From: Natronococcus sp. CG52
GTDB lineage: Archaea > Halobacteriota > Halobacteria > Halobacteriales > Natrialbaceae
Assembly: GCF_023913515.1 (NCBI RefSeq)
Contig: NZ_CP099393.1
Coordinates: forward strand, 124,001 to 188,000
Reading direction: 5' to 3'
Length of the DNA: 64,000 nt
Part shown: positions 23,153 to 62,896 of the stretch, one piece after another
How the letters are laid out: each line of letters begins with the position of its first letter
Numbering within the stretch: the stretch's first letter is position 1
The notes under the pieces: generated by a model
Database searches by the model: none
The model's input: only the letters and a program-made list of their open reading frames with translations
Told to the model about the DNA's origin: nothing
Program-made: the position numbers and the translations under genes

Positions 23153-23582
23153 GGATTTAGAAATTCGGTGCGGACGAGATAAATCCATCGCTCGTTCGAG
23201 AAACTGATTACAGGCGACGCAACGACGAGCTGGATTCCCTGTTGACGAGTCGTCGCTTCCCGCTCGGACGTGATCTTCACGATCCGCTCCGGCCCGGTAT
23301 CACCCTGCGGCCGACGAGCAGGCGTTGGAACGCGGCAACCTCAGGGGACGCCCGGGTTGATAGCCGATATACGCATTTAGAACCTCACCAGACGGAACGT
23401 TCTCAACTCGATGCTACTCGTATTAGATAGGCACCCGAACCCACTCCACTATACCTCTCGCAGATACTCCAGTCCGAATGAGAGCCGCTGACTCTATCAG
23501 GCTGCCAGTGTCTTCATTCAAGCCGGTTCGGCTGAGTAGGTCATCGGAAAAGAATAAGTACCGGCGTTTCTACCATACTCGT
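23153..23582. other. Divergent intergenic region
   Basis: About 430 bases between the DHDPS-family gene (minus) and the first GH4 gene (plus). A GATTTATC box serves the minus-strand gene. AAGAATAAGTACC near 23550 may serve the GH4 gene. No operator repeat of the 17-bp type is present. Confidence 0.4.
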
Positions 23583-25070: not shown

Positions 25071-25154
25071 TCGCCGGTCGCTCCGGTTCCAAAACAGCGC
25101 TTTTCTCATTCCAGACTGGGAGCGACTCTCGACAGGAGCCGCACGAACCACCCG

Positions 25155-25829: not shown

Positions 25830-25830
25830 G

Positions 25831-26718: not shown

Positions 26719-26920
26719 GTGGCGTATCACATGTCCTATCAAGTTCAAACCAGATAAAATCTATGCGAGATATCAGACTGGTATGGGGCCTCGAAACCGG
26801 CGTTCCAGTCGGAGCCGCCTTGTTCCAACGCTTCTGTTCGTCGGTCCCTCCGAGTACGACGGATTCTGATCGTGTTGTGGCGCTGTCAGCGAAACGTAGT
26901 TTCGTGTTGCTCGCCGCGCC

Positions 26921-28375: not shown

Positions 28376-28399
28376 AGGACACAGCAATAGAGACTTGCT

Positions 28400-28582
28400 C
28401 ATGATAAATAAACATTGTGTGGATTCGTACCGTGCAGTGCCTACTGTGTGCACGAGCAGTTCGCCACGTGCGCAGTCGAAATGTCTCCACGAGAGCGAGA
28501 TCGCCTGTTGGGTCCACTCGGCCATCGGGACGGAATCACTTCGGGCAATACATTTATGTCAACCGTCCCTTGGAGAGTACAT
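28400..28582. promoter_or_regulatory. Divergent promoter region, GH4 and chaperonin genes
   Basis: The minus strand has TTTATTTAT at 28406-28414, placed for the GH4 start at 28375. The plus strand has ATACATTTATGTC near 28548-28560, about 28 nt before ATG 28583. Shared control of the glycosidase and the chaperonin is possible but no operator repeat is visible. Confidence 0.45.
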
Positions 28583-41557: not shown

Positions 41558-42387
41558 GGCTCTGTTGAATCGCTGTAAGGCGGTGGATTTCACTGTTTGA
41601 TGGCACGCTTGATGTTGTAGACGACACACATCAGAGCGATTTCACGGAACTCTCGACACCAGCCACGCGCTCGCACAGCGTAGCCGAGCGAGCGCTTGAC
41701 GGCTGAGTTGACGGTTTCGGTCATTGACCGCTGAGCGTACCGGTCTTCGTCAATTCGGGCGTTGTGTGCGTGATCGTACGGTGCGAAGATTCGGTGTTTG
41801 ATCAGTGTGTGAATGTCGAGTTCACGGAGCCGTTCGCGGAGTTGTTGCTTGTCATAGCCCTTCTCAGCGGCCAGTGACCGCAGATCGCCCGCGTTCCGGC
41901 GGGCGATCTGCTCACAGAGATCCGCGTCACTGCCGTCTAACGTCGTCGAATAGTGAAGATCGAGCACAGTTTGCGTTGCTGTATCGACGAGTTTTGTGAC
42001 CTTGAGCGTTTGAACGCGGTAATTCGTTCGTTGGCAGTAGTGGCGGCTCGCACGATCTCGTTCGTAGAATGTGTCGTCGATAGCAGCGTGTTCGGATGAA
42101 TCGTGTAGCTGCGCCGACTGGCGCAGCAACACTCGACAGACGCTCATCTCGATCCGGTCAAACGCCTTACACAGGGTGGAAGGTGCGGGGAGATCGGCCG
42201 CATTGAGGCCGATCTCGCCTGTTATTTGCGGCATTTCCTTCAGCAGATCGATGGTCATTCGGTAGGTGGCATCGAGGTAAATCCGGAGACAGTGCAGCGA
42301 AACGAGGGCATAGTCGGCGAATCCGCCGCCACCGCTCGGGGCGGCGGATTCGCCTCGTTCACCCGTAACTCTTTGTGCAATCGAGAC

Positions 42388-43083
42388 GGTCGTGTTTAGT
42401 TTGTAGCATTGTGCCAGACGGCGAAGGCTTGGAGCCACGATTCTGCGGTCGTTGGTCTCGCGTGGTTGAAACAGTTTGAGAAGGAAGAGGTTCGGCGTTT
42501 TACCTCCCGAAAGATACGTTCAACAGCGTTCCGATTTCCGTGTTTCTCGTATCGAAATCGGAGCCCACGTCGCCGGAGTGCTGTCTGAAGATGGTGTGCT
42601 CCATCGACGAGAAACACGGTGTTGGAGAGATCATGTTTCTCAGCTAGTTCCCGCAGAAAGATCTCTGTCACAGCGGTCGTAGTCGTCGAAAATAGCCGTA
42701 TATGGAGCAATTCGTTCGTTTCGGGATTGACCGCAGCGTACAGCCAGTACTGCTGATCGCCGATCCGAATCACGGTCTCGTCGAGCGCGACGTGATTCGG
42801 AGAGACCCTATCAGTCGGCTGGAGATCGCACTTGTGCACCCAGTCGTGGACTGCTTTCCATGATCGTTCGACACCGAACTTCTCTAATTCTCGAACGGTA
42901 TTCGAAAGCGAGAGGCCAGCCAAATGGAGTCGAATACCGAGCTCCATCAGCTGACGCGGTGTCCGCTCTCGCTCCACAAAACTCAAATCGATCCAGTCGC
43001 TACACCCGCTGAGGCGGTCGATTTTTGGCATGGACACCATGAAATCGTGCCGCCTCACTTTTCACGCTTAACTAAACACCGCC
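42388..43083 (-). mobile_element. IS6-family insertion sequence, copy 2, with target duplication
   Basis: A 696-bp element with terminal inverted repeats GGTCGTGTTTAGTT and GGCGGTGTTTAGTT. It is flanked on both sides by ATCGAGAC (42380-42387 and 43084-43091). The perfect duplication shows a direct insertion into the IS5-type transposase gene with no later rearrangement at this site. Confidence 0.95.
42396..43058 (-). CDS. IS6-family transposase
   Basis: An intact 220-residue transposase. An N-terminal zinc-less helix-turn-helix region (TPRQLMELGIRLHLAGLSLSN, VERSWKAVHDWVHKC) precedes a DDE core: Asp in HVALDETVIR, Asp in FLVDGAHH and Glu in GNRNAVERIFREVKRR. It ends SWLQAFAVWHNATN. It is nearly identical to copy 1 at 5548-6210, which has a stop at codon 163. 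It could mobilise both copies. Confidence 0.93.
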   Translation of the reverse strand: MRRHDFMVSMPKIDRLSGCSDWIDLSFVERERTPRQLMELGIRLHLAGLSLSNTVRELEKFGVERSWKAVHDWVHKCDLQPTDRVSPNHVALDETVIRIGDQQYWLYAAVNPETNELLHIRLFSTTTTAVTEIFLRELAEKHDLSNTVFLVDGAHHLQTALRRRGLRFRYEKHGNRNAVERIFREVKRRTSSFSNCFNHARPTTAESWLQAFAVWHNATN

Positions 43084-44303
43084 ATCGAGACACAACGCTC
43101 GGTGAAGCGGGAGATTTGCGTCATGGACAACTAAATTCTCCCGCTTCAACTCCTTTGATTTACTGACCTTCCCCTACGCCGTCTAGTGATTCAACGCAGC
43201 CGATTCAACCTAGTGTACGAACCGGAATCGACCCTCGAGAGTTCTACGCTAGCGATCAAGGTTCATACGAATACAGACGTTACTGGTGAGTACGTCCTCG
43301 TCACTTCGACCGCACCCGACCAGATCGCCTCATACGCGAAGTATCTCGTCGGGAAAAATCCACTACGACGCGAACGACATTGGAGTGAGATCAAACGCGG
43401 CCTACGAAAGTATGACCGGATGGGGATCGGTCCGCTTGATATCGCTCTCTGGGATTTCGCCGGAAAGCACTACGATGCACCAATTCACGAATTGCTCGGA
43501 ACGTACCGAAAACAGATCCCCCACTTACGCTTCAACGTACCACGCCGACGATAACGGCGGACTCAACTCGCCCGAAGCTTACGCCGACTTCGCCGAGCAG
43601 TGTCACGAGATGGGATACGAGGGATTCAAGATCCACGGCTGGGGAGGCAGCGACGAGCAGCGGGACATCGACCGCGAGATCAAGACGGTCCACGAGGTCG
43701 GTGATTGAGTCGGCGACGAAATGGGCCTCATGCTCGACCCCGCCTGCGAGTACGAGACGTTCGGCGACGCGGTGAAGGTCGGAAAGGCCTGTGACGAACA
43801 GGACTTCTTCTGGTACGAGGATTCGTATCGGGACGGGGGGAATCTCACAGCACACCGACCGAAAACTACGGGAGTCAATCAATACGCCGTTGCTCTTGAC
43901 AGAACACATCCGCGGACTGGAACCGTTTACCGATTTCATCGTAACGAAGCGACAGATTTTATTAGAGCTGATCCGGAGTACGACGGAGGGATCACCGGTG
44001 CGATCAAGCGAGCCCGGATCGCCGAAGGATTCGGCCTCGACGTCGAAATTCACGCACCTGGTCCTGCCCACCGTCACTGCATTGCAGCGATGCGAAACGC
44101 TAACTATTACGAGGTTGCTCTCGTCCACCCTGACTGTCAGAATACGCAGCCGCCGATTTACCGGTGTGGATACTCTGACATGGTCGACACTATTAACGAC
44201 GAAGGATACGTCGAAGTACCTGACGGACTCGGGCCCGGGGTCGAATATGATTGGGAGTACATCGAAGAAATGCAGGCTGGTTCGGTTCGCGTTTACGAAT
44301 AAA

Positions 44304-45403
44304 ATGACGTATCGTACAGGAATCATCGGCACGGGTGGTATCGCCGGAATGGGAATCCTCGGTATGCACAATGAGGTCAAGATCGGCCGGGAAAATCCGA
44401 GCCAGTTACGCCGGCGGGTTTGAGGCGCAGGACGAGATTGAGCTTGTCACGGCTGCTGACGTCGACGAAGAGAAACTCGAACGGTTCGGAACGGCATGGA
44501 ACATCCCCGCCGAACGCCGATACGTCGGACACGAGGCAATGCTCGCGACCGAAGAGCTGGACATTGTGTCGGTGTGTACTCCGTCGTACTTACACCACGA
44601 GCACGTTATCGACGCAGCGAGGTCGAAAGCCGATCCCGATCTTATCTGGTGTGGAAAGCTGATCGCCTCACGGGTCAGCGCCGCAGAGGAAATGACGTCG
44701 GCATGTGTAGAGAACGATATCGAACTGCTTGTCAACCACTCGTTCCGGTTTACCGACAAACAGCGGTAGCTCAAGCGGCTTATTTAGGAGGAGAAGCTCC
44801 TCGGTGAGATTCAGTCAGTCAGCACGCAGTTTCGCATGGAACCTCTGAGGAACTCGATACATCTGATCGACACGTTGGTGTACCTCCTGAATGCGCGAGC
44901 CAAAAATCATTTCGAGTCACATTACCGGCGAAAACGAGGCCGTCGATAGTCTCAATGCTAACCAAACCGTCGACGACGCTGGCGGAAGCGGTTTCGTCGT
45001 GATAGACGATAGCACGTTCGTCACCGTCGACTGTACGATCCCACGGGAGTAGTCGTCAATGACGATCTCGATCATCGGATCGAACAGCAAACTCTACCGG
45101 AACAACGACGACGGAGAGTGGCGGTACTGGCGACTCGCAGATGATGGAACTCACGTCGAGGAGACTCTTCCCGGCATTGAGGGAGCCTGGACTTGGGAAG
45201 ACGATTACAGGGGGGCGTTTAGTAACGCTGCTTCCCACATCGTCGACGTGCTGGACGGACGTGCCGAAAACGCGTCGCCCGGCGAAGAAGCGACCCGAAG
45301 TCTCGAGATCATCATCGCCTTCTACCTCTCGCACCACACGAACGGACAGATCGACGTGCCGCTCGCGAGGCCGCTTCGTAACGTGCGCGTCACGTCTTGG
45401 TAG
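44304..45403 (+). pseudogene. Gfo/Idh/MocA-family oxidoreductase, multiply disrupted
   Basis: The start MTYRTGIIGTGGIAGMG is a Rossmann motif. After a shift near 44390 it continues with FEAQDEIELVTAADVDEEKL, VCTPSYLHHEHVIDAA and NHSFRFTDKQR. Stops at 44767 and 44788, further shifts and a damaged middle follow. The C-terminal domain resumes near 45050 with MTISIIGSNSKLYRNNDD, ending DVLDGRAENASPGEEA and LIIAF-like helices. Such enzymes oxidise or reduce sugars and inositols with NAD(P). It begins 1 base after the enolase-family remnant, so the two formed an operon. Confidence 0.8.
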
Positions 45404-49999: not shown

Positions 50000-51259
50000 T
50001 CACTCGTCCTCGTCTCCGTAGTACGCTAGTGCTCGCTCGAGTTCCGCGTGGTTCTCCGCGAACGTCTCAAGGTCAATGCCGTTCATAGCCGCCTCCCATC
50101 CCTGCCGGAGGTGTTCAACTCCCGCCGCGGGACCATCCGGATGACCGAGAATCCCCCCGCCGGCCAAGTGCATTAGATCGGAATTCCCGAGTGCGTTATA
50201 CGTCTTCGGTGCTTGTTTCGCCCACTGTCCCGACGAGAACACCGGAACCGCAACATCGTTCTCGTCGTCGATCGGCGTCTGAACCGCATTGGCCGACCGT
50301 ATGACGGATTCATTCGACTCTGTGAACTTGTTGTCGATGCCGTTTACGTGGATGTGATCGGCCCCTGCTAACCGCAGGAATTTTTGGTAGGCATCGAACT
50401 CGAAGCCGAGCAGGGGAGATCGGGACCGCGCACCCCAGCCGTTCCGGTGGACGTGAATCGGGACCTCCGCGTGTCGTCTGAGTGCGATGAGTCCGGACAA
50501 TCCGACGCTTTCGGCGCTGACCATAACGCAGTTTCCACCGGCCTCGACGACGGCATCGTGGTTTCGTTTCATTTCGTCGGTTTCTCCGGTGATATTGCAT
50601 GCGTACATGACTTCACCTTCGGTTTCTTCGTGTTGGCGAATAACATCCATCACCGCGGCGGCGCGATCTTCGACGGGTGAATACGGTGGAGATGCGATCA
50701 GCTCGTCGTCTTTGATGAAATCGATTCCGGATTCGACGAGCGTCTCGACCAACTCACCGGTTTCCTGGGGCGAGAGCCCCACATTCGGTTTGATGATCGT
50801 GCCAATCAACGGTCGATCGTGAACACCGGCAAGCTCACGCGTTCCTTCAACACCGAACTGCGGACCGGGACAGCGTTCGATCACCGGTTTCGGCATTTCG
50901 ACGTCGAGTAATCGGACGCCGGAGAGCTCCCGGAGTTCGAAGAGGTTTCCACCGACCGTTGTAAGGAGATTTGGAAGCGACCCACCAACATTCTGTGTGG
51001 GAAACGAAATTGTGATTTCCCCACGTTGATATGTCCCGGTTTCGCTGGCATCGGCTCCGGGAAGCTCTGGCTCCGACGTGCATTCAATCTCCGTTACATC
51101 TTCAACTATCGCACCGTGACGGTCATGAATGTCTGCTGTTGCGTGTTCGACCTCGACGAACGTTCCAGAGGATTGTTCACCCGCTATCGCATCGGCGGCT
51201 TCGACGAGCGAATACGGCGTTTCGATACGATACCGTGCCTCGAATCGGTTCTCGGTCAT
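50000..51259 (-). CDS. RuBisCO-like protein (RuBisCO large-chain superfamily)
   Basis: A 419-residue member of the RuBisCO large-chain superfamily, the last gene of a four-gene operon. Residues that match RuBisCO active-site positions are N105 (GGNLFEL), K157 (GTIIKPN), K183-D185-E186 (FIKDDE, the carbamate and Mg site), H271-R272 (HVHRNG), H304 (DHIHVNG), K311 (loop-6 lysine), S343-G344 (VFSSGQ) and G367-G369 (GGGILGHP). RuBisCO K177 is Asn159 here. This differs from form III archaeal RuBisCO and fits the RLPs that act on branched acid-sugar phosphates (3-oxo-isoapionate-4-phosphate) in D-apiose degradation. The start is at 51259, because the family begins there. The exact reaction is inferred. 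Confidence 0.85.
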   Translation of the reverse strand: MTENRFEARYRIETPYSLVEAADAIAGEQSSGTFVEVEHATADIHDRHGAIVEDVTEIECTSEPELPGADASETGTYQRGEITISFPTQNVGGSLPNLLTTVGGNLFELRELSGVRLLDVEMPKPVIERCPGPQFGVEGTRELAGVHDRPLIGTIIKPNVGLSPQETGELVETLVESGIDFIKDDELIASPPYSPVEDRAAAVMDVIRQHEETEGEVMYACNITGETDEMKRNHDAVVEAGGNCVMVSAESVGLSGLIALRRHAEVPIHVHRNGWGARSRSPLLGFEFDAYQKFLRLAGADHIHVNGIDNKFTESNESVIRSANAVQTPIDDENDVAVPVFSSGQWAKQAPKTYNALGNSDLMHLAGGGILGHPDGPAAGVEHLRQGWEAAMNGIDLETFAENHAELERALAYYGDEDE

Positions 51260-51305
51260 AACATTGATGAACGGTTTACAACTATAAAGGCTGTGTGAAC
51301 GGGAA

Positions 51306-52385
51306 TTAGACGAAGCGATGTTGTGGTTCCTCTCCTGCGAGCAGCAACTCCAGGTCGCTGGCGATAATCTTCGATCCGTTGAGGACCGCATCGCGAGTGG
51401 ATCCGGCCGTGTGTGGAGAGAGCCACGCGTTCTCGATGTCCAACAGCGGATGGGATTCGGGGAGCGGTTCCTCGTCGAACACGTCAAGTGCAGCCCCACC
51501 GATCTCTCCCGATTCGAGGGCATCAACTATTGCATCGGTGTCGACCAGCCCGCCTCGAGCAGTATTCACCAGTAAGCCGGTTTCTTTCATTTGGCTGAAT
51601 TCAGCTTCGCTGAGCAAGTTCTTCGTATCCTTGGAGAGCCGAGCGTGAAGCGTTACGATATCAGCCCCACCAAGCAATTTGTCGAGTGACGCGGACGAGA
51701 CGCCGTGATCTGCAAAAACTTCGTCGTCGACGAACGGATCATATGCAACGATATCCGGGCCAAATCCAGCCCAGCGTTTTGCAACCTGCCGACCGATGTT
51801 TCCAAATCCAATGATGCCGATAGTAAGACTCTTGAGGTCTCGCGGGAGGTTCTCCGGATTGAACTCTAAGGCCCACTCACCGTGGTTCGTGGTTTCGACG
51901 AAGTAGGGAATTCGTCGGTGAACAGAACAGGCGAACGAGACGGCGTAATCTGAGACGGCGTTTGCGTTTCGACCTGGGGCATGAAGGACCGTCACGTCGT
52001 GTTTCTCTGCCGCTTCGAGGTCGATGTTTTCGACTCCACCGCGGGCAGCGCCGACGACTTCCAGATCATCTCCCGCCTCGAAGACTGCTTGAGAGACCGG
52101 CGCTTTGTGTACTACAAGGTACTCGACACCGTCAAGATTCGAGACGATCTCGCTTGCATCGTAGTCGTTTGGACCGCGTTCTTCCATATCCATCGTCACA
52201 TCGCGGAACTTGGACGCGGACGAATCGCTGTGCCAGTCAGTCCGTTCGAACGTTACACCCTGTCCTTCGAGGAAGGACATCGACTCGTACATATATTCAC
52301 TCGGCTGCTGTGGATCGCCGCACAGGAGACAGTGTTTATTTCCCATCAATTCGATCTGACTGGGACCTAACTTAATTGTTGCCAT
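51306..52385 (-). CDS. D-isomer-specific 2-hydroxyacid dehydrogenase
   Basis: A 359-residue protein of the phosphoglycerate dehydrogenase/2-hydroxyacid dehydrogenase family. NAD motif GIIGFGNIGRQVAKR at about residues 194-208. The catalytic Arg is in VNTARGGLVD, the Glu in FDEEPLPESHPL and the His in LSPHTAGSTRDA. It opens MATIKLGPSQIELMGNKHCL. It overlaps the kinase gene upstream by 19 bases and lies 46 bases before the RLP gene, so it shares their transcript. It probably oxidises an acid sugar or its phosphate; the substrate is unknown. Confidence 0.9.
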   Translation of the reverse strand: MATIKLGPSQIELMGNKHCLLCGDPQQPSEYMYESMSFLEGQGVTFERTDWHSDSSASKFRDVTMDMEERGPNDYDASEIVSNLDGVEYLVVHKAPVSQAVFEAGDDLEVVGAARGGVENIDLEAAEKHDVTVLHAPGRNANAVSDYAVSFACSVHRRIPYFVETTNHGEWALEFNPENLPRDLKSLTIGIIGFGNIGRQVAKRWAGFGPDIVAYDPFVDDEVFADHGVSSASLDKLLGGADIVTLHARLSKDTKNLLSEAEFSQMKETGLLVNTARGGLVDTDAIVDALESGEIGGAALDVFDEEPLPESHPLLDIENAWLSPHTAGSTRDAVLNGSKIIASDLELLLAGEEPQHRFV

Positions 52386-53893
52386 ATCTGGCGTAGCGAT
52401 CGAATTGAATCTTCGAAGATGGGTTTGTGTTGCTCGTACAGGGACACCAGTTCAGGATCCGGTTCGTGTCGACGAGCAAGGTCGACCATATGCTCAACCG
52501 CTGTGGTGTGGTCCGAGTGGGTACCAACCGCGATAGCAGCGCTGATCGCCGCGCCGCGCGCACCGGCTTCTTCTCCGGCCGGAATGAGGACGTTTTCGTC
52601 GAGACAGTTCGCGAAGATCCCGCTCCAGATCTCGCTTCGTGCGCCACCACCTCCCAATCGAATTTCGTCAATACCGGTCGGCCCTATCAGATTTACCAGA
52701 TTCAAACTTTGTGCTAACGCAACTCCCTCGTAGATCGAACGGAGCATATGTGCTTTCGTATGGTCCGTCGTTAACCCGTAAAAGCCACCGCGGTCAGACG
52801 GATTGTCGGTTGATCCTTCGAGGTATGGATAAAAGAGGAGCCCTTCCGCACCTGGCGGGGTTTCGGTGACAATCTGGTTACTTAGTTCGTACAGGTTCAC
52901 CCCCTCAGCCGACGCTCGTTCGCGCCATTCGTGGCCAGCTTCGTCGAGGAACCAGTCCAGACACGCCGTTGCCGATCGGTTCCCCTTATACGAGATCCAG
53001 TGGTCTTCAAGAAAGCGCCGATCGAGCCCTGAACTGCAGTCTTCGGAGGTCGTCGGTTCCTCACGGATGACGATACTCTGACCCCACGTTCCGAGAATAA
53101 GCACGCATTGTCGTGCTCTGTGCGCGCCGACCCCGAGTGCGGTCGCGCCGATATCATGTAATCCGGATGCGACGGGGATCCCCTCAGGAAGTCCAGTCTC
53201 ACGGGTCGCTTGCGACGACACTTCCCCGCACGATTCCCAACTGGGAACGACGGCCGGAAGCGCTTCGATGCACTCCTCGAGACCGAGTGCCTCGAATACC
53301 CCCTGATCGTACGATTCCGATTGCGGGTCGTAGAAAACGCTGGCTTCCATTTCGTCCGTACAGATCGTTTCAGTCAGGCGGTACTTGAGGTAATCCTTAC
53401 AGAACAACAGGTGGTGGATCCGCTCATATGACTGCGGTTCGTGTTTTTTGAGCCACGCCAGGAGCGACAGTGGATCCGCTGCGAAGGGCCGGTACCCGAG
53501 CCGCCGGTCGATCGTTTCGGCGGTTCCGTCGGTTTCCCACTGGTCCATGAGGTCCGTTGCCCGACTGTCGGTAGATTTGATACCGGGGCGGACGGGGTTT
53601 CGCTCGGTGTCAAGTGCGTACAGTCCGTGTCCGTGTCCAGCAACGCCGATTCCAGTGATGTTGTCAGAGTGAACAGGTCCGTCTTCGATCACTTCGCGAA
53701 TTGTCGTCGTCGTCACATCCCATAGGGTTTCGAGTTCGACTTCGTGCTGATTCGGAGCGGGATGGGTAACTGGTGTTTTCCGGTCTGCCACCGCCAGCTC
53801 CTCTCCGTCTGGGGTGAACAGCACCGATTTCGTTTTTGTCAAGCCGGCGTCGATACCAAGGATACACTCGGTTTGTTTGTGCTCGGAACTCAT
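52367..53893 (-). CDS. FGGY-family carbohydrate kinase
   Basis: A 508-residue FGGY kinase. The N-terminal phosphate-binding loop is GIDAGLTKTKSVLF, followed by GVAGHGHGLYALD. The catalytic Asp is in SGLHDIGATALG, with the second ATP-binding motif GGGGARSEIW near residue 430. Its GHGHGLY pattern resembles L-xylulose, 3-keto-L-gulonate or tetrulose kinases more than glycerol kinase. The start overlaps the aldolase-like gene by 4 bases (ATGA). It would phosphorylate a ketose or acid sugar before the RLP or aldolase step. Confidence 0.9.
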   Translation of the reverse strand: MSSEHKQTECILGIDAGLTKTKSVLFTPDGEELAVADRKTPVTHPAPNQHEVELETLWDVTTTTIREVIEDGPVHSDNITGIGVAGHGHGLYALDTERNPVRPGIKSTDSRATDLMDQWETDGTAETIDRRLGYRPFAADPLSLLAWLKKHEPQSYERIHHLLFCKDYLKYRLTETICTDEMEASVFYDPQSESYDQGVFEALGLEECIEALPAVVPSWESCGEVSSQATRETGLPEGIPVASGLHDIGATALGVGAHRARQCVLILGTWGQSIVIREEPTTSEDCSSGLDRRFLEDHWISYKGNRSATACLDWFLDEAGHEWRERASAEGVNLYELSNQIVTETPPGAEGLLFYPYLEGSTDNPSDRGGFYGLTTDHTKAHMLRSIYEGVALAQSLNLVNLIGPTGIDEIRLGGGGARSEIWSGIFANCLDENVLIPAGEEAGARGAAISAAIAVGTHSDHTTAVEHMVDLARRHEPDPELVSLYEQHKPIFEDSIRSLRQIWQQLS

Positions 53894-54888
53894 TTGTAAA
53901 CGCTGTTCTGTGCACTTCCGGAAGTAGTCGCGATTTCATTGTATACGTCTGCGATCCGCTCGCGCACCAGCTCTCCGACAACCTGCGGGTTGAAATCGGA
54001 TTTGCGGGGGGACCACTTGCTGTCCGCGAAAAACGTTGCCCGGTCGTCCGCCGTGTCTTCCGGCGGGACGATCGAATCGGTGTGCTCTTGGTAGAATTCA
54101 CACGCGGTGCGTGCGTGTTCGTACTGGAAGCGTGTGTTCGTATTAAGCTTGCAAACCCCCGTTTTCATGAGCTCTGAAACCTGATCGGGGGTGAGTCCGG
54201 AGGATCCGTGAACGACCAGTGGTATGTCGAGACCGTGATCTTGCAGCGCCTCGTTGATTTCGGCTGCGAGGTCGACTCGGAGATCGAGATTATGTCCCTT
54301 CGAGACGCCGTGTTCGGTTCCAATGGACACGGCGAGGAGATCGCAGCCAGATCGGTCGACAAACTCGACGGCTTCTTCTGGATCGGTGTACAGTGCCTCT
54401 TCGGTCGTTTCACCGCTTTCCGTACCTGCGATCACTCCGAGTTCTGCCTCGACGAGTATTGGCTCGTCTCGCTCGTCAATACAGTCGACGACCGTTGCCG
54501 TTCGTTGGATATTCTCTTCGAGGGGATACTCGGATGCGTCGATCATTATTGACGACGGATTACTCGCCGTAATCGACGCGTCAAGCATCGCCGCATCTTC
54601 CACGTCAATGTGATCGACGTTCAGAAAGACCCCAACGTCGATATCTTTGGCAAGTTCCTCTAAATACGTCTCGATAATTCTGAGTCCTGCCGTCGCGTCC
54701 CCATTTCCGACGTATTCGGCGGTGTCGCGTTTTACTTGCAAAACAATGTCCGAGTTCGCTTGCTCTGCACCCATCAGCTGCCCGACCAATATATCTAGAT
54801 GAGTGATATTGCTGGCGATAAACCCGTAGTTCCCTTCCTTCGCTCTTCTATAGACGTCAGCAAGAGCTTCACCTCGTTTGTATGGCAT
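53890..54888 (-). CDS. Class II fructose-bisphosphate aldolase family protein
   Basis: A 332-residue zinc-type aldolase-like protein starting MPYKRGEALADVYRRA. Candidate zinc histidines are in FLNVDHIDVED, ISIGTEHGVSKG and VVHGSSGLTPDQV. The terminal barrel shows KLNTNTRFQYEHART. It belongs to the FbaA/GatY/KbaY group cleaving ketose phosphates to dihydroxyacetone phosphate and an aldehyde. ATG 54888 is chosen over 54906, because the A/T run at 54908-54924 on the minus strand is a well-placed TATA region for a leaderless message. It is the first gene of the RLP operon. Confidence 0.88.
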   Translation of the reverse strand: MPYKRGEALADVYRRAKEGNYGFIASNITHLDILVGQLMGAEQANSDIVLQVKRDTAEYVGNGDATAGLRIIETYLEELAKDIDVGVFLNVDHIDVEDAAMLDASITASNPSSIMIDASEYPLEENIQRTATVVDCIDERDEPILVEAELGVIAGTESGETTEEALYTDPEEAVEFVDRSGCDLLAVSIGTEHGVSKGHNLDLRVDLAAEINEALQDHGLDIPLVVHGSSGLTPDQVSELMKTGVCKLNTNTRFQYEHARTACEFYQEHTDSIVPPEDTADDRATFFADSKWSPRKSDFNPQVVGELVRERIADVYNEIATTSGSAQNSVYK

Positions 54889-54907
54889 AGATAATCCATA
54901 TCCCATA

Positions 54908-55092: not shown

Positions 55093-55992
55093 ATGTCGTC
55101 AAAGACAATCGGATTTATCGGCCTCGGAATCATGGGTAGTCCAATGGCAAAGAACCTCCTGAGTGCTGGATACGACGTTATCGGACACAATAGATCACAA
55201 GGTCCGGTCAACGATCTCGTTGATTCCGGGGGTGCACCAGCTGACAGCGCCAAAGAAGCCACCGAAAACGCAGACGTGATTATCACATGCCTTCCGAATA
55301 CTGACACCGTATCCGAAATAGTTCACAGCGAAGAAGGGATACTTTCGGGCGTCTCCGGCGGAGAGACCGTCATCGACATGTCCACGATTTCACCGGTTGA
55401 AACGGAAGAAATCGCCGATGCGTTAGCCGAACACGACGTCGACATGCTTGATGCCCCGATTAGTGGCGGCGAAGAAGGAGCGATCGACGGCTCACTCTCT
55501 ATCATGGTCGGCGGAGACGAAGCGGTACTTGAGGAGTATAGACCAATTTTCGAAGCGATGGGTGAACGCATCACGTACTGCGGACCAAACGGGGCTGGTC
55601 AGGTCACGAAAGCTTGCAACCAGATCGTCGTTTCTAACACACTCGAGGCGATCGGCGAGGCGTTAGTGTTTGCCGAAAAAGCCGGCGCTGATCTCGAGGC
55701 GGTTATCGAAGCGATCAGCGGTGGCGCAGCCGGTTGCTGGGCACTGGACAACCGAGCGCCGTCGATGATCCGTGGTGATTTTGAGCCCGGCTTTTTCGCA
55801 TCATACCAGCACAAGGACCTCAGAATCGCAACCGATGCTGGCGAAGTGTTCGGTGCACCCATGCCAGTTACCGAGACCACTCGAGAGTTGTATAAGGCGA
55901 TGAAAGAGAATGGGATGGGGAAGGACGACAACTCCGGGATCATCCAAATAATCGAAATGCTCGGTGGGGAACAAGCCCGAATCGACAATTAA
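55093..55992 (+). CDS. Beta-hydroxyacid dehydrogenase (GarR/LtnD/HIBADH family)
   Basis: A 299-residue NAD(P)-dependent beta-hydroxyacid dehydrogenase. Rossmann motif GFIGLGIMGSPMAKNL at residues 7-22, substrate motif DAPISGGEEGA, catalytic Lys in GAGQVTKACNQ, and the C-terminal YQHKDLRIA segment. Tartronate semialdehyde reductases, L-threonate dehydrogenases and hydroxyisobutyrate dehydrogenases share this architecture. GATTTTACTTA near 55057-55067 gives a promoter, and a G-rich GGGGGGTG lies at 55071-55078. It is divergent from the RLP operon over 204 bases, so common control is likely. It is a candidate for the first oxidation of a tetronate or the last reduction of the route. Confidence 0.88.
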   Translation: MSSKTIGFIGLGIMGSPMAKNLLSAGYDVIGHNRSQGPVNDLVDSGGAPADSAKEATENADVIITCLPNTDTVSEIVHSEEGILSGVSGGETVIDMSTISPVETEEIADALAEHDVDMLDAPISGGEEGAIDGSLSIMVGGDEAVLEEYRPIFEAMGERITYCGPNGAGQVTKACNQIVVSNTLEAIGEALVFAEKAGADLEAVIEAISGGAAGCWALDNRAPSMIRGDFEPGFFASYQHKDLRIATDAGEVFGAPMPVTETTRELYKAMKENGMGKDDNSGIIQIIEMLGGEQARIDN

Positions 55993-56251
55993 TGCGCACG
56001 CAGTCGTCAAACGATTCGTGGCGGTATGTTGAGATCCGCCTGACAGAACCTCACTCCTTGTTGCTGAAGCAATTGTAACCACAGATAGTGTGCAGGCTTC
56101 ACGCTTTTGCGATTCCGATAGTACTTGGTGAATTAGAACATTGAATTGCTTACAGCAAAGCAGTCTCGAATAGACACAGTATACCGACTGCACCACTAGG
56201 AAATGACTCAAATCACCAGATAATGTTTGCCCACGAGTGACTGCTAGTGCT

Positions 56252-56632
56252 TCAGTGTAGTGTGTGGAAGACTTCTACTTCGTACCCGTCGGGATCCTTG
56301 ACAAACGCGACGCGGGCGTTCGCTGCGTCGACAGTCGTTGGTTCTTTGATGACCGGACAATCCGTTCTTTCACAGAGTTGGTTGAAAACGTCGTCTGTGT
56401 CGTCGACCAAGATACCGAGGTGAGCGAATCCCGACGGATCTATGGGTTCGGTTTTATCAGGATCATGAACGAACTGGATCCAGGTATCGAGCTCGTCCCC
56501 GGTCACGTAGTAGTTATGAACGCCCTCGTCGGTGTGGAAGTCCCACGCGTACTCAAGTCCGAGGCCGTTTTCATAAAACGATTTTGTCGCTTCTAAATCC
56601 GAGACCTGCATCGCGGAGTGTTGAATTTCCAT
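56252..56632 (-). CDS. VOC-family (glyoxalase-like) protein
   Basis: A 126-residue vicinal oxygen chelate domain, MEIQHSAMQVSDLEATKSFY and on. Likely metal ligands are His5, a residue in TWIQFVHD, His in GFAHLGILVDD and Glu in YEVEVFH. The pattern is that of lactoylglutathione lyase-like isomerases. In an acid-sugar cluster it may isomerise or epimerise a small keto acid. It has its own start, 123 bases downstream of the SDR gene. Confidence 0.85.
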   Translation of the reverse strand: MEIQHSAMQVSDLEATKSFYENGLGLEYAWDFHTDEGVHNYYVTGDELDTWIQFVHDPDKTEPIDPSGFAHLGILVDDTDDVFNQLCERTDCPVIKEPTTVDAANARVAFVKDPDGYEVEVFHTLH

Positions 56633-56755
56633 ACAGCCAAGGTATTCACCTCACAGCGTAAATAAGTGTACGATTGGTATGTCTGAAACCGCTTACTGTG
56701 TCTCGGTTCTTCAAGCAGACGGACAATTTGGAAGGTGACGGTTTCTCGCGTGGTA

Positions 56756-57535
56756 TCAGTAGATCGATAGACCGCCGTCAACGGTGATGATCTCGCCAGT
56801 CATGTATTCGGTCGCATCGCTCGCCATATAGAGGACCGTCGGCGCGATCTCTTTAGGAGTTGCCGGCCGTTCTGCGGGGATTTCTTTCTCTAACTGACCC
56901 GAGTCGGCCATCTCTGCTGCGTTCTTGGTGGTATCGGCGAGTGCGGTTACCGTTCTTCCGGGTGAGATACCGTTAACCCGGATTTCGTCGTCGATCAAAT
57001 CCAACGCGGCGCTTTTTGTTATCATTTTGACTGCCCCTTTCGTCGAATTATACAGGATTTGAGAGCCAAGGGCCAAATCCGTTCGAATGGATGCCGTGTT
57101 GATAATGCACCCGCTGACGTTTCGTTCAATCATATCCATCGCGGCGATTTGTGTGCCGAATAGGACGCCGAAGAAATTGACCCCCACAGCCGCCTCATAA
57201 TCCTCCTCGCTGATCTCTAAAATCGACTTTCGGAAGTTCACACCGGCATTGTTGACCATTATGTCGACGCCGCCATACTCTCGAGCCTCGTCGATGAGGG
57301 CGGTGAGGTCCGCAGAGTTCGTAACGTCCGTTTCTGCGTACGTAGCCGTTCCACCCCGTTGTTCGATGAGTTCGTGCGTGGCTGTTTCAACGTGGTCTGG
57401 CGACGCCTCGAGATCGCCGTTCACAACTGTTGCACCTGCTTCGGCAAATTGAAGCGCAATCTCGCGTCCGATTCCCGAACTTCCCCCCGTGACAACAACA
57501 GTCTCTCCCTCAAAATTGAAATTTACTTCTTGCAT
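56756..57535 (-). CDS. Classical short-chain dehydrogenase/reductase
   Basis: A 259-residue SDR starting MQEVNFNFEGETVVVTGG. NAD motif TGGSSGIGREIA at residues 16-27, DVTNSADL, NNAGVNF and the catalytic set Ser (INTASIRT), Tyr and Lys (YNSTKGAVK). The C-terminal YMTGEIITVDGG is typical of sugar and polyol dehydrogenases. CTTTATATATGC at 57558-57568 is a TATA box about 27 nt upstream, so it has a promoter of its own although the IclR gene lies upstream in the same direction. Confidence 0.9.
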   Translation of the reverse strand: MQEVNFNFEGETVVVTGGSSGIGREIALQFAEAGATVVNGDLEASPDHVETATHELIEQRGGTATYAETDVTNSADLTALIDEAREYGGVDIMVNNAGVNFRKSILEISEEDYEAAVGVNFFGVLFGTQIAAMDMIERNVSGCIINTASIRTDLALGSQILYNSTKGAVKMITKSAALDLIDDEIRVNGISPGRTVTALADTTKNAAEMADSGQLEKEIPAERPATPKEIAPTVLYMASDATEYMTGEIITVDGGLSIY

Positions 57536-57589
57536 CTTCAGGTAGGTTCCTTATCAGCATATATAAAGTTAACCTTTGGAACATACAGT

Positions 57590-58363
57590 TCAATAATGCT
57601 CATACTTCAGTTTTATAATGTTTATACTGTGGTCTAACTCATCAATGAGTTCGTCGATAGAACGCTTATCTAGCCGTTTTGTCGGTCCGGCGATGGCAAT
57701 CGAGGCTCTGTCCGCTTCTCCACAGACGAATGCCTTTCCAACCGAACGAAGACCGGATCGTCGTTCTTCGTCCCCGATAGCGTATCCAGTCTTGTTGATT
57801 CGGTCCAGTTCGTCACACAGCTTTTCCCACTTCGTAATCGTGTTCTCGGTCGCGGCTGGCAATCCGTGTGTATCGATTATCTCTTTGACTCGTTCGCGTG
57901 GAAGTGATGCAAGAAGCGCTTTGCCGAGCGCTGTCCAGTGCATGTGTGTGTATTCACCGGTTGGTGCCCGGTCGTAAACGGCGTCTTCCCCTTCAGACCG
58001 GTAGAGTACCACTCGCTTACCCATGTCCTCGACTGCTAAACTGACGAGTTCCCCCGTTTCGTCTGCCAGTCTGTTTACCTCGTCTTTTGCGCATCTGTAG
58101 ATCTTCATACGTTGTCTCGCGAACCCACCGTGTTTGAGAAACCGGATACCCGTATGATATTTCCCATTTGATTTTGTAATGTACCCCTTTTGAGCTAACG
58201 TCCTGAGATAGACATAGGTGGTACTTTCAGCCATATTGTATTCCGCAGCAATTTCCGAGACTGTTGCTCCCCGTTGCTCTTCAATTAGGTCAATTATATT
58301 GAAAGCAAGATCGACAGATTTTATCGTTTGTGTATTGGTTTCAGAGTTAGCCAGGTTCGCCAT
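57590..58363 (-). CDS. IclR-family transcriptional regulator (second copy)
   Basis: A 257-residue IclR protein starting MANLANSETNTQTIKSVD. The winged helix-turn-helix is ATVSEIAAEYNMAESTTYVYLRTLAQKG. The effector domain has HWTALGKALLASLPRERVKEI and RRSGLRSVGKAFV, the usual GLRS position. TTTTTTAGCGC on the minus strand near 58385-58395 is a plausible promoter. It sits in the middle of the acid-sugar module, beside the SDR, and is its most likely local regulator. Its binding site could not be found by eye; no copy of the 17-bp repeat lies in this half of the window. Confidence 0.9.
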   Translation of the reverse strand: MANLANSETNTQTIKSVDLAFNIIDLIEEQRGATVSEIAAEYNMAESTTYVYLRTLAQKGYITKSNGKYHTGIRFLKHGGFARQRMKIYRCAKDEVNRLADETGELVSLAVEDMGKRVVLYRSEGEDAVYDRAPTGEYTHMHWTALGKALLASLPRERVKEIIDTHGLPAATENTITKWEKLCDELDRINKTGYAIGDEERRSGLRSVGKAFVCGEADRASIAIAGPTKRLDKRSIDELIDELDHSINIIKLKYEHY

Positions 58364-58681
58364 GATTGATGTTTGGGCTTGTGCGCTAAAAAATTGCTTC
58401 GTTCCGGTGGGTCAATCGTGACAGTTCTAACGGTATCCAGCGCGTCAAAACGAAATTTTCAATCGCATTAACAATGTCTGATATGAAAGATTCCGCTTGA
58501 AATCGCCTTACCGGAATCGTTCGTAGCGGATCCGTTAGGTCAGTTGGATCACAAGGTACTTTTCGCTCTGCTACCGTTCTTGACTAGCCAAACGGTAGCA
58601 ACATGCGCCCCTTTGGTGAGAATTGCGACTGTATATTCGACGATGCAAAACGGTGGGCTAGTTATATACTAATCCAAGCCC
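58364..58681. other. Intergenic region upstream of the IclR gene
   Basis: About 320 bases. It holds the IclR promoter and, near 58660-58680, a TTATATACTAATCC box for the small membrane protein. Nothing else is recognised. Confidence 0.4.
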
Positions 58682-58894
58682 ATGTCTAGTCCGGTAATGA
58701 GAGTATCACAGTTCATGGACGAAGATGATGAAACTATTTCTGCCATTTTATCATTGTTGCTCTGGAGTTCGTTTTTTCTGGCATTATATATTGCAGTTAT
58801 CGGAAATATCGGTATCAATCTGTACTTGTTCGTCGCACTCATAATAGCGGCCGCGATTGCGATCGTGGTGATCTCAGAAATCAGAGGGCGCTAA
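58682..58894 (+). CDS. Small two-helix membrane protein
   Basis: Up to 70 residues. MSSPVMRVSQFMDEDDE is followed by two hydrophobic segments (ILSLLLWSSFFLALYIAVIG and LYLFVALIIAAAIAIVVI) and a basic end EIRGR. The AT-rich TTATATACTAAT box at 58660-58671 lies about 20-35 nt upstream of the possible starts at 58682 and 58697. No family is recognised. A TRAP DctQ subunit is larger, so it is not that. Confidence 0.5.
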   Translation: MSSPVMRVSQFMDEDDETISAILSLLLWSSFFLALYIAVIGNIGINLYLFVALIIAAAIAIVVISEIRGR

Positions 58895-59178
58895 CTTATA
58901 TTGACGTGCTGAATTAGACCTCGTTTTCCGGTTCACTCGTTCCACAATTGTTGGAATTGATCATTCATTCACGCAGATTAATCACGCATATCTGCCATGC
59001 TGGAGAAATATTTACGCCCATACTGGTGTAATATAGATGTATGTTATCATCAAGCAATGAATAGATCCGATTGATCTTCCCAACGAGTCGAACCTCCGTA
59101 TGGACAAGTACGGCCATTATTTTTAAGGATAGACCTTCACAAAATACGCCCTGAGATATCGAAAGGGTTCAATCGCGG

Positions 59179-60558
59179 TTAGTTGTCTTTCCACTCGCTC
59201 GCACCGTCACGAAGTTTGACAAAAAATTGCTTCCCACCGAGTTGTCCGCCTTTCAGGGCTAACTCAAGTCCATCGAATCTCTCTGAATTGGAATATGCTC
59301 GGCAGACCGGTGCTCCGGACGCGAGCGGGAAGCGAGTTTTGAGTGCCGAAATATCGAGCATTGAAGTCACATATCCGCATGTGTCACCGCCGGCAATACC
59401 AACTCTCGTAATATCGGTTTCGGATAACAACCTCCGGACGATCACTCCTTGCGTTTTACCAATACGGCGGTCGATGTTTCCGTCGAATTCTACGTCATCC
59501 GCGCGTTGGATCGTTTCATCTATTATCGAGTCGTTCGGCCCGCGTGCGGTGTACACGACGACGCTCTCTCCGTTTTCGAGTAACGCTTCCGCTGTCTCGT
59601 TAATACGGTTTTTCTCGGCATCGCGAGTGTCCGGATCTACTAGCCGCGGGGTATCGATCGGGACAAGCGAAAAGCCCGCCTCCTTTGCAGCAGCAATTTG
59701 GCGATCTGTCATCGGCGAGGCACTCCCGGACATCACGAGTACCTGATCGACAGCTGGCAGCGGCGGATATTCCGGTTCGAGATTAACGACACCGGCCGAT
59801 TTCCAATACGACGAGAGTGCGTACTCGACACCCGAGGAACCTACAATGAACGACGTCTCCGACAACTCTTTCCCAAATACTTCCCAGCACACTTCGCCGA
59901 ACGTGGTCATATGGGCTTTGTTCAACGCATCGAAAAACAGAACCTCGCTCCGTTCTCGAGCATCCGGAAGTTCCTCCTCGAGAGTCGTGGCCCCCTCTTC
60001 GACCGATAGCACGTCGAGCAACTCCATGGATTTCTCAGTTTGTTTCGAGAGGTGTTCAAGGAGGTTACTCTCGTCCATCGGCGTTACAGGGTGCTCGCTC
60101 ATCGTCGGGTGACAATCGAGCCGATAGATATCCGACGCCTCTTCTGCAAACATGTTCCCGAAGACAACGTACCTACCGAGTGGTGGTGCTGCCGGAAAAA
60201 CGGGAACGGTCCCGGTCTCGAGCGTCTGTTCTGCTACATCTATCGCCGTTCCGATGCTTCCGATCTCGGGCGAAGAATCGAACGTCGAACAGATTTTGTA
60301 GTGGAGAAGCGGCGCATCTATCTCCGCAAGCTGTTCGAAGACGGAAGGAAGCGACTCGGTCATTTCGTCGGGATTCATCGACCGGCTTGTTCCGGCAACC
60401 CCGACCGCTTGGGCATCGTCGAACTCTTCGGATACTTTTTCCGGATCTGGCGGCTCAAAGAACAGCACCGTTTCGATTCCTCGACGGCTTAGTGCGTCCA
60501 TTGCATCCGTCGAGCCCGTTATATCATCTCCATAGAACGATAAAAGGTAATCACTCAT
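59179..60558 (-). CDS. DUF1537 acid-sugar kinase (3-oxo-isoapionate kinase-like)
   Basis: A 459-residue four-carbon acid-sugar kinase family protein (DUF1537). The N-terminal substrate-binding motif is FYGDDITGSTDAMDAL. It is followed by YKICSTFDSSPEIGSIG and, in the C-terminal nucleotide-binding domain, MSGSASPMTDRQI, VVYTARGPNDS and VGIAGGDTCGYV. In bacteria this family phosphorylates threonate, erythronate or their 3-oxo forms. The subgroup with YGDDxTGSTD plus CSTFDSSPEIGSIG is the one I associate with 3-oxo-isoapionate kinase (OiaK). Co-occurrence with an RLP strengthens that reading. ATG 60558 is used; 60564 is also possible. It is divergent from the class II aldolase/adducin gene. Confidence 0.85.
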   Translation of the reverse strand: MSDYLLSFYGDDITGSTDAMDALSRRGIETVLFFEPPDPEKVSEEFDDAQAVGVAGTSRSMNPDEMTESLPSVFEQLAEIDAPLLHYKICSTFDSSPEIGSIGTAIDVAEQTLETGTVPVFPAAPPLGRYVVFGNMFAEEASDIYRLDCHPTMSEHPVTPMDESNLLEHLSKQTEKSMELLDVLSVEEGATTLEEELPDARERSEVLFFDALNKAHMTTFGEVCWEVFGKELSETSFIVGSSGVEYALSSYWKSAGVVNLEPEYPPLPAVDQVLVMSGSASPMTDRQIAAAKEAGFSLVPIDTPRLVDPDTRDAEKNRINETAEALLENGESVVVYTARGPNDSIIDETIQRADDVEFDGNIDRRIGKTQGVIVRRLLSETDITRVGIAGGDTCGYVTSMLDISALKTRFPLASGAPVCRAYSNSERFDGLELALKGGQLGGKQFFVKLRDGASEWKDN

Positions 60559-60729
60559 CACCACTCACCAGTCTCGTTTTGTGTTCCGTTGATCGAGATC
60601 GTGCGACTACAAATAGCGGTCTTTTGAGTATTAGTACTCATTGAATGAACCTTTTCTATTTCTTCGTATTAAGATTTCGCTCCCAGCACAACATATATAT
60701 GTTTGATAAGGGTAGTTGACAGGGAAGAT

Positions 60730-61380
60730 ATGGTAAATGACAATCTGAGGGAGCGGCGGCGAGCCGTTGGCGATCTCGGACGACAAATGCTTGAGCAAGG
60801 ATTGACGCGTGGGAGCGGCGGGAACGTTAGTGTACGGGCCGATGATCGTGTCGCGATCAGTCCATCGGGAGTTCCCTACGAAGACGTCTCCGCGGATAAT
60901 GTCCCGCTTGTTGATCTTTCCGGCGAGAGAGTGTTCGGGGAGCTGAAGCCGTCGAACGAGACGCCGATGCACACGATCATATACAACGAACGAAATGGTG
61001 TCGGTGGAATCGTTCATACACACTCTCCGTACGCGAGCACGTTTGCAAGCCTCAACGAACCGATTCCCGCGTCACACTATCTCATCGCGTATATTGGACA
61101 GGAAATCCCCGTTGCAGGGTATGCCCCGCCTGGATCCGAAGAGCTCGGGCAGTTGGCGATCGACGCCATGGGGAACGACCACGATGCGGTATTACTGAAG
61201 AACCACGGCGTTATCGCGGTCGGTGAAACTGGTGAAGATGCACTTGAGGTCGCACTCATGGTGGAGTACTGTGCCCGGATTCATTACCAGGCGGTGAATA
61301 TCGGCGAGCCCGAAATAATGGACAAAGATAACGTCGCTGACTTGCGAAAAATGTTCAGCGACCATTATGGGCAGCAGTAG
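60730..61380 (+). CDS. Class II aldolase/adducin-family protein
   Basis: A 216-residue zinc aldolase or epimerase-type protein starting MVNDNLRERRRAVGDLGR. The motif GLTRGSGGNVSVR and phosphate-binding ISPSGVPY are present. Catalytic Glu is in KPSNETPMH, zinc ligands in GGIVHTHSPYAS and LLKNHGVI. Relatives are fuculose-1-phosphate aldolase, ribulose-5-phosphate 4-epimerase and 3-oxo-tetronate-4-phosphate decarboxylase (OtnC). Next to a DUF1537 kinase the last is a good candidate. CATATATATG at 60690-60699 is a probable TATA box. Confidence 0.88.
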   Translation: MVNDNLRERRRAVGDLGRQMLEQGLTRGSGGNVSVRADDRVAISPSGVPYEDVSADNVPLVDLSGERVFGELKPSNETPMHTIIYNERNGVGGIVHTHSPYASTFASLNEPIPASHYLIAYIGQEIPVAGYAPPGSEELGQLAIDAMGNDHDAVLLKNHGVIAVGETGEDALEVALMVEYCARIHYQAVNIGEPEIMDKDNVADLRKMFSDHYGQQ

Positions 61381-61618: not shown

Positions 61619-62896
61619 TTATAGAAGTTCGATGGTCCACATGAACGTTTCTGGGTAGAAGGTTATAATGAACAAGACCGCAAAGAGCGGGATATAGTAA
61701 GGAAGTATTTGTTTTATCGTCTCTTCGACCGGAACCTCAGCGATCTGGCTAGATAAGAACAGTGACAGCCCGAATGGCGGGGTCATCAGCCCAATCATGA
61801 GGTTGAACACGATGATCATGCCGAAGTGGATTGGATCAATTCCGATTTGCGTCGCAACGGGTAACAGCAGCGGCGTAATCATAACGAGCGCTGCAATTGT
61901 CTCGAGGAAGAGACCCGTAACCAAAATGATCAGATTCATGATTAAGAGCACTATTATCGGGTTGGTCGTGGTGCCGAGAATCGTTTCCGTAACGAAAGGC
62001 GCCATACGAGTAACCGACATGACCCACGCGAACAACGCCGCAGCGGCGACGATGAACAGAATGATTGATGTGGTTCGGACAGATTCTCTACTTGCACTCA
62101 TGATATAGCTTGTCGACACGTTCCGGTAAACGAATACGTTGATAGCGATGACATACAGAACGGTTATTGCGGCCACTTCACTCGGGCCAAAAAGTCCTGC
62201 AAGCATTCCGGCAATTAGGATGACCGGCGTCATGACGGCAGGAAGCGTGTAGGAAAACCCACTCCAACCGACCTTCTCGTCCGGATCGACTGTGGGAAAG
62301 TCCCGTCGCACCGAGATGAAGTACGTTGTGATCATAAGTAAGACGACGGTCATGAGTGCCGGGATGATCCCCGCCATAAACAACGCAAGAATTGACTCTT
62401 CAGCCAGTAGTCCATAAATGATCAGCGGAATACTCGGCGGGAATATTGGACCAGCGGTCGCCGAAGCAGCCGTTATCGCGGCCGCGTAGGCACTATCGTA
62501 ATTATACTCCTCCATTGCGTAGATCATCGCTCGACCGACTCCACCGATATCAGCCAGTGCAGCCCCGGACATTCCAGAGAAGATGAGACTCGCAATGATG
62601 TTGACCTGAGCAAGACCACCACGAATTCCTCCGACTAATTTATTCGAGAATTTAAATATTTTTGTTGTGAAATCAGCGTGATTTAGGAGAGAGCCGACAT
62701 AGATAAACAACGGAATCGTCAGGACCGTGTATGAATTGAGTGCATATACTACCCGTTGTGCGACGATGGTAATCGGTTCACCCGCCCACAACACATAGCC
62801 AATTGATGGTGCCAGCAGCGCAATCGCCACCGGGAAGCGTAAAAGCAACAGCAATAAGAACGCGGCAACGACCATCACTCCGAAGATTTCGCTCAT
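61619..62896 (-). CDS. dctM: TRAP transporter large permease (DctM)
   Basis: A 425-residue DctM-type permease with about 12 hydrophobic helices, opening MSEIFGVMVVAAFLLLLLLRF. Family marks are the first loop SLLNHADFTTKIFKF, the conserved MSGAALADIGGVG, and ITAASATAGPIFPPSIPLIIYG; LMTPPFG lies near the end. TRAP systems import carboxylates and acid sugars using an ion gradient and a periplasmic-type receptor. Only the tail of a small permease precedes it. No receptor gene is in the window, so the system is incomplete here. It suits import of a tetronate or apionate. Confidence 0.93.
   Translation of the reverse strand: MSEIFGVMVVAAFLLLLLLRFPVAIALLAPSIGYVLWAGEPITIVAQRVVYALNSYTVLTIPLFIYVGSLLNHADFTTKIFKFSNKLVGGIRGGLAQVNIIASLIFSGMSGAALADIGGVGRAMIYAMEEYNYDSAYAAAITAASATAGPIFPPSIPLIIYGLLAEESILALFMAGIIPALMTVVLLMITTYFISVRRDFPTVDPDEKVGWSGFSYTLPAVMTPVILIAGMLAGLFGPSEVAAITVLYVIAINVFVYRNVSTSYIMSASRESVRTTSIILFIVAAAALFAWVMSVTRMAPFVTETILGTTTNPIIVLLIMNLIILVTGLFLETIAALVMITPLLLPVATQIGIDPIHFGMIIVFNLMIGLMTPPFGLSLFLSSQIAEVPVEETIKQILPYYIPLFAVLFIITFYPETFMWTIELL

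Follow-up and report, generated by a model that had tools for sequence, protein, structure and literature searches.

A predicted OiaT-like RuBisCO-like protein from a haloarchaeon: relatives, active site and gene setting

Apionate-type RuBisCO-like proteins (RLPs) have been characterised in bacteria. According to a review (PMC6302742), the RLP of Agrobacterium radiobacter K84 (OiaX) decarboxylates 3-oxo-isoapionate-4-phosphate, and the RLP of Xanthobacter autotrophicus (OiaT; Carter et al. 2018, as reported there) transcarboxylates/hydrolyses the same compound. An RLP oxygenase from the D-hamamelose pathway of Ochrobactrum anthropi (Kim et al. 2018) is cited in two further papers (PMC8914248 and PMC10176493), in one of which the pathway is said to end in 3-phosphoglycerate and glycolate. 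An RLP of this general type is described here from the haloarchaeon Natronococcus sp. CG52, in a 64-kb stretch of DNA that was analysed as a whole (the window), which lies on a 378-kb replicon of a 4.74-Mb genome. Because enzymes of this type are common among bacteria and are also present in other haloarchaea, the window RLP joins a kind already known, of which it is a haloarchaeal member in a rearranged and unusual gene setting.

The RLP gene and its relatives

The RLP gene is found at 50000-51259 on the minus strand, running from an ATG at 51259 to a stop codon at 50000 with no internal stop and encoding 419 amino acids. The protein matched the Pfam families RuBisCO_large (E 9e-72) and RuBisCO_large_N (E 2e-9), and its best NCBIfam model was OiaX (NF042437; 461 bits, E 3e-138); these matches are not due to chance. 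Structural modelling, which had been proposed in a preliminary description of this DNA, gave an AlphaFold2 model with the RuBisCO fold (pLDDT 91). The structure closest to this model was PDB 3nwr (Z 53.3, rmsd 1.4 Å over 399 residues), an RLP of Burkholderia fungorum that is the nearest solved structure and is 46-48% identical to the window RLP, with Tyr instead of Trp at the position of RuBisCO H298. No second RuBisCO-superfamily gene was detected in the genome by a search with the OiaX model, which also detects form III RuBisCO.

A maximum-likelihood tree built from 72 sequences placed the window RLP within a haloarchaeal clade of 14 RLPs (support 99/98), which together with bacterial RLPs and OiaX formed a superclade split from RuBisCO forms I and III, MtnW and Chlorobium-type RLPs at 100/99. 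The bacterial RLPs with which it groups come from loci with OiaK and PGDH_C genes, Xanthobacteraceae included. OiaX branched among OiaT-like sequences from bacteria, in a group with 99/97 support, which suggests that RuBisCO residues were secondarily lost in OiaX. The window RLP was 61-66% identical to its haloarchaeal relatives, mostly 51-58% to bacterial members (~55% to those of Xanthobacteraceae), 44-45% to the OiaX proteins from R. etli and S. meliloti and 47.6% to PDB 3nwr in the residue alignment, and its branch (0.49) was longer than those of other haloarchaeal members. The assignment of X. autotrophicus OiaT to the same clade rests on members of its bacterial family: among 61 Ancylobacter-family (Xanthobacteraceae) genomes, none had a protein above the OiaX cut-off, and six had RLPs of 412-463 bits, like that of the window. 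The window RLP shares its superclade with the RLPs of the family to which OiaT belongs, as well as the retained RuBisCO residues and the linkage of the clade to OiaK, whereas it is archaeal and its activity is a prediction. Within the D-apionate RLP group it lies in a haloarchaeal branch, probably on the OiaT-like (transcarboxylase/hydrolase) side.

Two more distant assignments were rejected. For MtnW, NCBIfam scores were 151-196 bits (151 against the cut-off of 513.6 for TIGR03332), and the tree position was apart. A true RuBisCO that carboxylates ribulose bisphosphate would be in line with the presence of most RuBisCO residues; nevertheless, it appears extremely improbable, since the protein is separated from forms I and III at the node with 100/99 support, reached only 253 of 497 bits with the form III model, and is changed at both K177 and H298. 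The preliminary description had already taken the protein for an RLP and not a form III enzyme, which agrees with this tree position; the metal-site and loop-6 residues that it listed are retained, and its view that CO2 fixation is unlikely is also supported.

Active-site residues and the predicted reaction

Residues were mapped with a 73-sequence alignment (given below as RuBisCO numbering = window RLP numbering), in which rows L107, L111, L113, L131, L132 and L135 are not valid. The metal/carbamate site is present in the RLP (K201=K183, D203=D185 and E204=E186), as are the catalytic residues K175=K157, H294=H271, R295=R272 and H327=H304 and the loop-6 lysine (K334=K311). Also retained are E60=E28, T65=T33 and N123=N105, and S379=S342, G381=G344, G403=G368 and G404=G369. 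In RuBisCO, the counterparts of Glu28, Thr33 and Asn105 are supplied by the partner subunit, and E60, N123, H327 and S379 act around the CO2 and phosphate sites. By this alignment, the near-complete RuBisCO active site that had been listed in the preliminary description was correct; its statement that only K177 (here Asn159) was changed was too narrow, as H298 is replaced by Trp275 and G380 by Ser343.

Such a site had also been regarded as unusual among RLPs. This was not supported: fewer RuBisCO residues are left in OiaX, MtnW and Chlorobium-type RLPs, but the catalytic set was common to 102-103 of 103 bacterial and haloarchaeal clade members at nearly every position, and the near-complete active site is therefore a property of the clade and not peculiar to the window RLP. 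Among these 103 relatives, the position of K177 was Ser in 98 and Asn in five, and that of H298 was Trp in all (these clade counts were made separately from the residue table, whose form III rows read G at K334 owing to a shift in the alignment of loop 6). The window RLP has the active-site set of the clade, with H298 replaced by Trp and G380 by Ser, and it deviated at three of 109 near-invariant columns (E40A, L44I and S159N), no more than other members did.

OiaX shares with the window RLP the Lys-Asp-Glu site, K175, H294 and K334 in addition to the superclade, whereas it has lost E60, N123, H327 and S379, all of which are kept by the window RLP; OiaX has Asp60, Gly123, Ala/Ser177, Gln327 and Gly/Cys379, with Ala177 and Gly379 in the R. 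etli and S. meliloti homologues. The retention of Glu28, Asn105, His304 and Ser342 argues for carbon-carbon cleavage over plain decarboxylation. A simple OiaX-type decarboxylase of 3-oxo-isoapionate-4-phosphate is suggested by the top NCBIfam model, yet this appears quite unlikely, as the score of 461 bits lies below the curated equivalog cut-off of 700 (R. etli OiaX scored 784 bits), the D60/G123/Q327/(G or C)379 pattern is absent, and LerI/DerI isomerases are missing nearby. In R. etli, OiaX is linked to LerI/DerI-like isomerases; its operon encodes DerI and a protein resembling triose-phosphate isomerase, in keeping with erythrulose phosphate as the product. In contrast, no TIM-like, LerI or DerI isomerase genes were found near the window RLP or in the OiaT-like loci surveyed. 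This R. etli RLP, encoded on p42f of strain CFN 42 (L013:9944-11239, RHE_RS26630) and annotated as OiaX, has been reported to be needed for the recovery of biotin-independent growth and has been linked to CO2 fixation (PMC8914248); what its residues and operon indicate is apionate decarboxylation and not CO2 fixation.

With the residues that are retained, a beta-keto acid phosphate could lose CO2 with the help of Mg2+ and form the RuBisCO enediolate. The most likely reaction of the window RLP is OiaT-like transcarboxylation/hydrolysis, in which 3-oxo-isoapionate-4-phosphate, or alternatively a close branched homologue, would be converted to 3-phosphoglycerate and glycolate (probability approximately 0.55). 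A carbamylated Lys183, together with Asp185 and Glu186, would hold Mg2+, and the phosphorylated branched 3-oxo acid (3-oxo-isoapionate-4-phosphate) would lose CO2 to give a RuBisCO-type enediolate, which may then be recarboxylated at the neighbouring carbon, hydrated and cleaved to the two products, so that the net outcome would be transcarboxylation/hydrolysis with no net fixation of CO2. We infer this reaction and its substrate from what the analysis provides directly, namely the predicted fold, the residues, the phylogeny, the conservation across the family and the gene neighbours of the clade, which include OiaK and in many cases a PGDH_C oxidoreductase. Chemistry on a branched acid-sugar phosphate, as put forward in the preliminary description, is also the best reading here. 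The second step might be carried out with CO2, as in OiaT, or with O2, as in the hamamelose-pathway RLP, and the sequence would fit either.

Gene setting

At each of the 14 other haloarchaeal loci, the RLP gene is followed within 1 kb by an OiaK-type kinase gene; nine of these loci also had a PGDH_C-family oxidoreductase gene within the stretch read (one more genome, G344, has it elsewhere). In bacterial loci, some of them on incomplete contigs, OiaK was nearby in 80 of 88 and the PGDH_C oxidoreductase in 48 of 88, and the PGDH_C gene adjoins oiaX-oiaK in R. etli. We take this PGDH_C-type (PF16896) protein to be the D-apionate oxidoisomerase (ApnO), judging from the published pathway and from operon position. 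The RLPs of Haloterrigena, Natrinema, Haloarcula, Natronosalvus, Halalkalicoccus and Halomarina belong to the same clade as the window RLP and have the same active site; they have an adjoining OiaK and mostly a PGDH_C oxidoreductase, whereas the window RLP has neither. No PF16896 (ApnO-type) protein was found in the genome by family and protein searches, which detected it in six of ten RLP-bearing haloarchaea, and the family was also absent from three further RLP-bearing haloarchaeal genomes. It is possible that a beta-hydroxyacid dehydrogenase encoded at 55093-55992 on the plus strand (tartronate-semialdehyde reductase/L-threonate dehydrogenase type by profile matches) stands in for the missing oxidoisomerase.

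The missing oxidoisomerase, here and in those three genomes, could also be explained if the enzyme were a D-hamamelonate-type oxygenase, in which a phosphorylated keto-hamamelonate would lose CO2 and the resulting enediolate would react with O2 to give 3-phosphoglycerate and glycolate. Such an oxygenase, of the type cited in PMC8914248 and PMC10176493, would require the same retained residues, and the branched substrate and the products of the O. anthropi enzyme would fit the active site. On the other hand, the ApnO-less RLPs are scattered and not grouped in the haloarchaeal clade, which speaks against a single substrate switch, and this alternative is rather unlikely.

The only OiaK-like kinase of the genome, a DUF1537 acid-sugar kinase at 59179-60564 (minus strand; it scored highest with the OiaK model, at 457 bits, where the cut-off is 700), lies 8 kb from the RLP. 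It clustered at full support with kinases that elsewhere are mostly located beside class II aldolase/adducin genes, as is the case here, and elsewhere its lineage adjoins the class II aldolase and not an RLP. A class II aldolase/adducin family gene (60703-61380, plus strand; 217 bits with the haloarchaeal ribulose-1-phosphate aldolase model, cut-off 300) is divergent from the kinase, and a TRAP transporter large permease gene (DctM) is present at 61619-62896 on the minus strand. The genome has three DUF1537 kinases, two of which group together outside the OiaK clade and are found beside PdxA-like genes (neighbours identified by reading the sequences). If the OiaT-like reaction takes place in this strain, the kinase at 59179-60564 may supply the RLP substrate. 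Compared with OiaT, the window genome differs in the lack of ApnO and in a kinase that is not adjacent and is of another lineage; the lack of a PF16896 protein, the aldolase-linked lineage of the kinase and the longer RLP branch count against the OiaT-like reading. In addition, the dehydrogenase, the DUF1537 kinase and the divergent class II aldolase (55093-61380) resemble the dehydrogenase-kinase-decarboxylase trio of tetronate degradation and may be a separate pathway with no need of the RLP.

Directly upstream of the RLP, on the same strand and separated from it by 46 bp, is a cassette consisting of genes for a class II (fructose-bisphosphate type) aldolase (fba; 53890-54906; NF041368, 551 bits, above cut-off), an FGGY-family sugar kinase (52367-53893; profile matches) and, as the third gene, a D-2-hydroxyacid dehydrogenase (51306-52385; profile matches). 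A kinase, a dehydrogenase and an aldolase had been named as functional partners of the RLP in the preliminary description. This was not supported: the cassette was examined at 12 further haloarchaeal loci and had no RLP nearby at any of them, which suggests that it is self-contained, and it was absent from all other RLP loci read. Several of these 12 loci also have a GlpR regulator. Furthermore, a haloarchaeal TATA-box-like motif, TTTATA, is present at 51283-51288 on the minus strand, at a distance of 24-29 nt from the ATG of the RLP (one of ten TTTATA copies on both strands of the 64 kb). Leaderless transcripts of haloarchaea would have such a spacing; by this motif match, the RLP may have a promoter of its own and may be transcribed alone.

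Recruitment of the RLP to another substrate, which the upstream FGGY kinase and 2-hydroxyacid dehydrogenase would produce in a pathway that also includes the class II aldolase, would agree with the short distance and shared strand, with the different lineage of the OiaK-like kinase, with the lack of ApnO and with the longer RLP branch. It is nonetheless improbable in view of the mutual independence of cassette and RLP in other loci, the TATA box directly before the RLP and the retention of family-invariant residues. Because ApnO is lacking, the kinase is of another lineage, the neighbours are new and the promoter is possibly its own, it is also conceivable, albeit unlikely, that the RLP of this strain has been uncoupled from the apionate pathway, and that it would perform a decarboxylation followed by recarboxylation or oxygenation of a branched acid-sugar phosphate new to RLPs.

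With regard to the product of the preferred OiaT-like reaction, pyruvate kinase and enolase genes are found downstream of the RLP and kinase in Haloterrigena KLK7, and one or both are nearby in Cupriavidus and Azospirillum, which fits 3-phosphoglycerate; such glycolytic neighbours were rare in bacterial loci (pyruvate kinase in 4 and enolase in 2 of 88). Another protein, of 268 amino acids (L002:13118-13924), is encoded directly upstream of the RLP in seven haloarchaeal loci (64-95% identical to the L002 copy); it had no Pfam or NCBIfam match, was absent from the window and may be a further partner in the pathway.

Distribution and surrounding sugar-acid genes

Among 391 sampled Halobacteria genomes, this type of RLP was detected in ten (461-515 bits), and the remaining matches scored under 200 bits, a level at which form III RuBisCO falls. 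The gene was absent from eight of eight other genomes of the genus, and seven haloarchaeal strains, representing six genera, carry it on plasmids. Its occurrence in bacteria is widespread (at least 572 confirmed stretches). A literature search, with most subscription papers beyond its reach, retrieved no published account of haloarchaeal apiose-type RLPs. The preliminary description had considered such chemistry to be new in a haloarchaeon, whereas at least 14 other haloarchaeal loci carry the RLP, most of them with presumed apionate-pathway genes.

These findings extend apionate-type RLPs to a well-supported haloarchaeal clade and suggest that branched-sugar acids from plants are used in salt lakes. 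Whether E60, N123, H327 and S379 are kept or lost may serve as a residue signature separating RLP decarboxylases from carbon-carbon-cleaving RLPs, the latter of which are still named RuBisCO large subunit in databases. If active, the window RLP would provide a test of RuBisCO-type carboxylation without K177.

The window also holds genes for sugar-acid dehydratases, dihydrodipicolinate-synthase-type aldolases, 2,5-dioxovalerate dehydrogenase and sugar transport. At 23478-28525, two GH4 glycosidase genes flank an NAD-dependent epimerase gene and are adjoined by ABC sugar transporter genes, and this region is likely to be involved in uptake and breakdown of plant glycosides. The GH4, sugar-acid and transport genes together mark the window as a sugar-acid catabolic island, which suits a plant-derived branched sugar acid in general and does not name a particular one. 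At 41590-44770, two transposase genes lie beside a split enolase-superfamily gene (MR_MLE_N at 43186-43551 and MR_MLE_C at 43721-44299) and a truncated Gfo/Idh oxidoreductase gene, a region of decaying sugar-acid genes next to insertion sequences.
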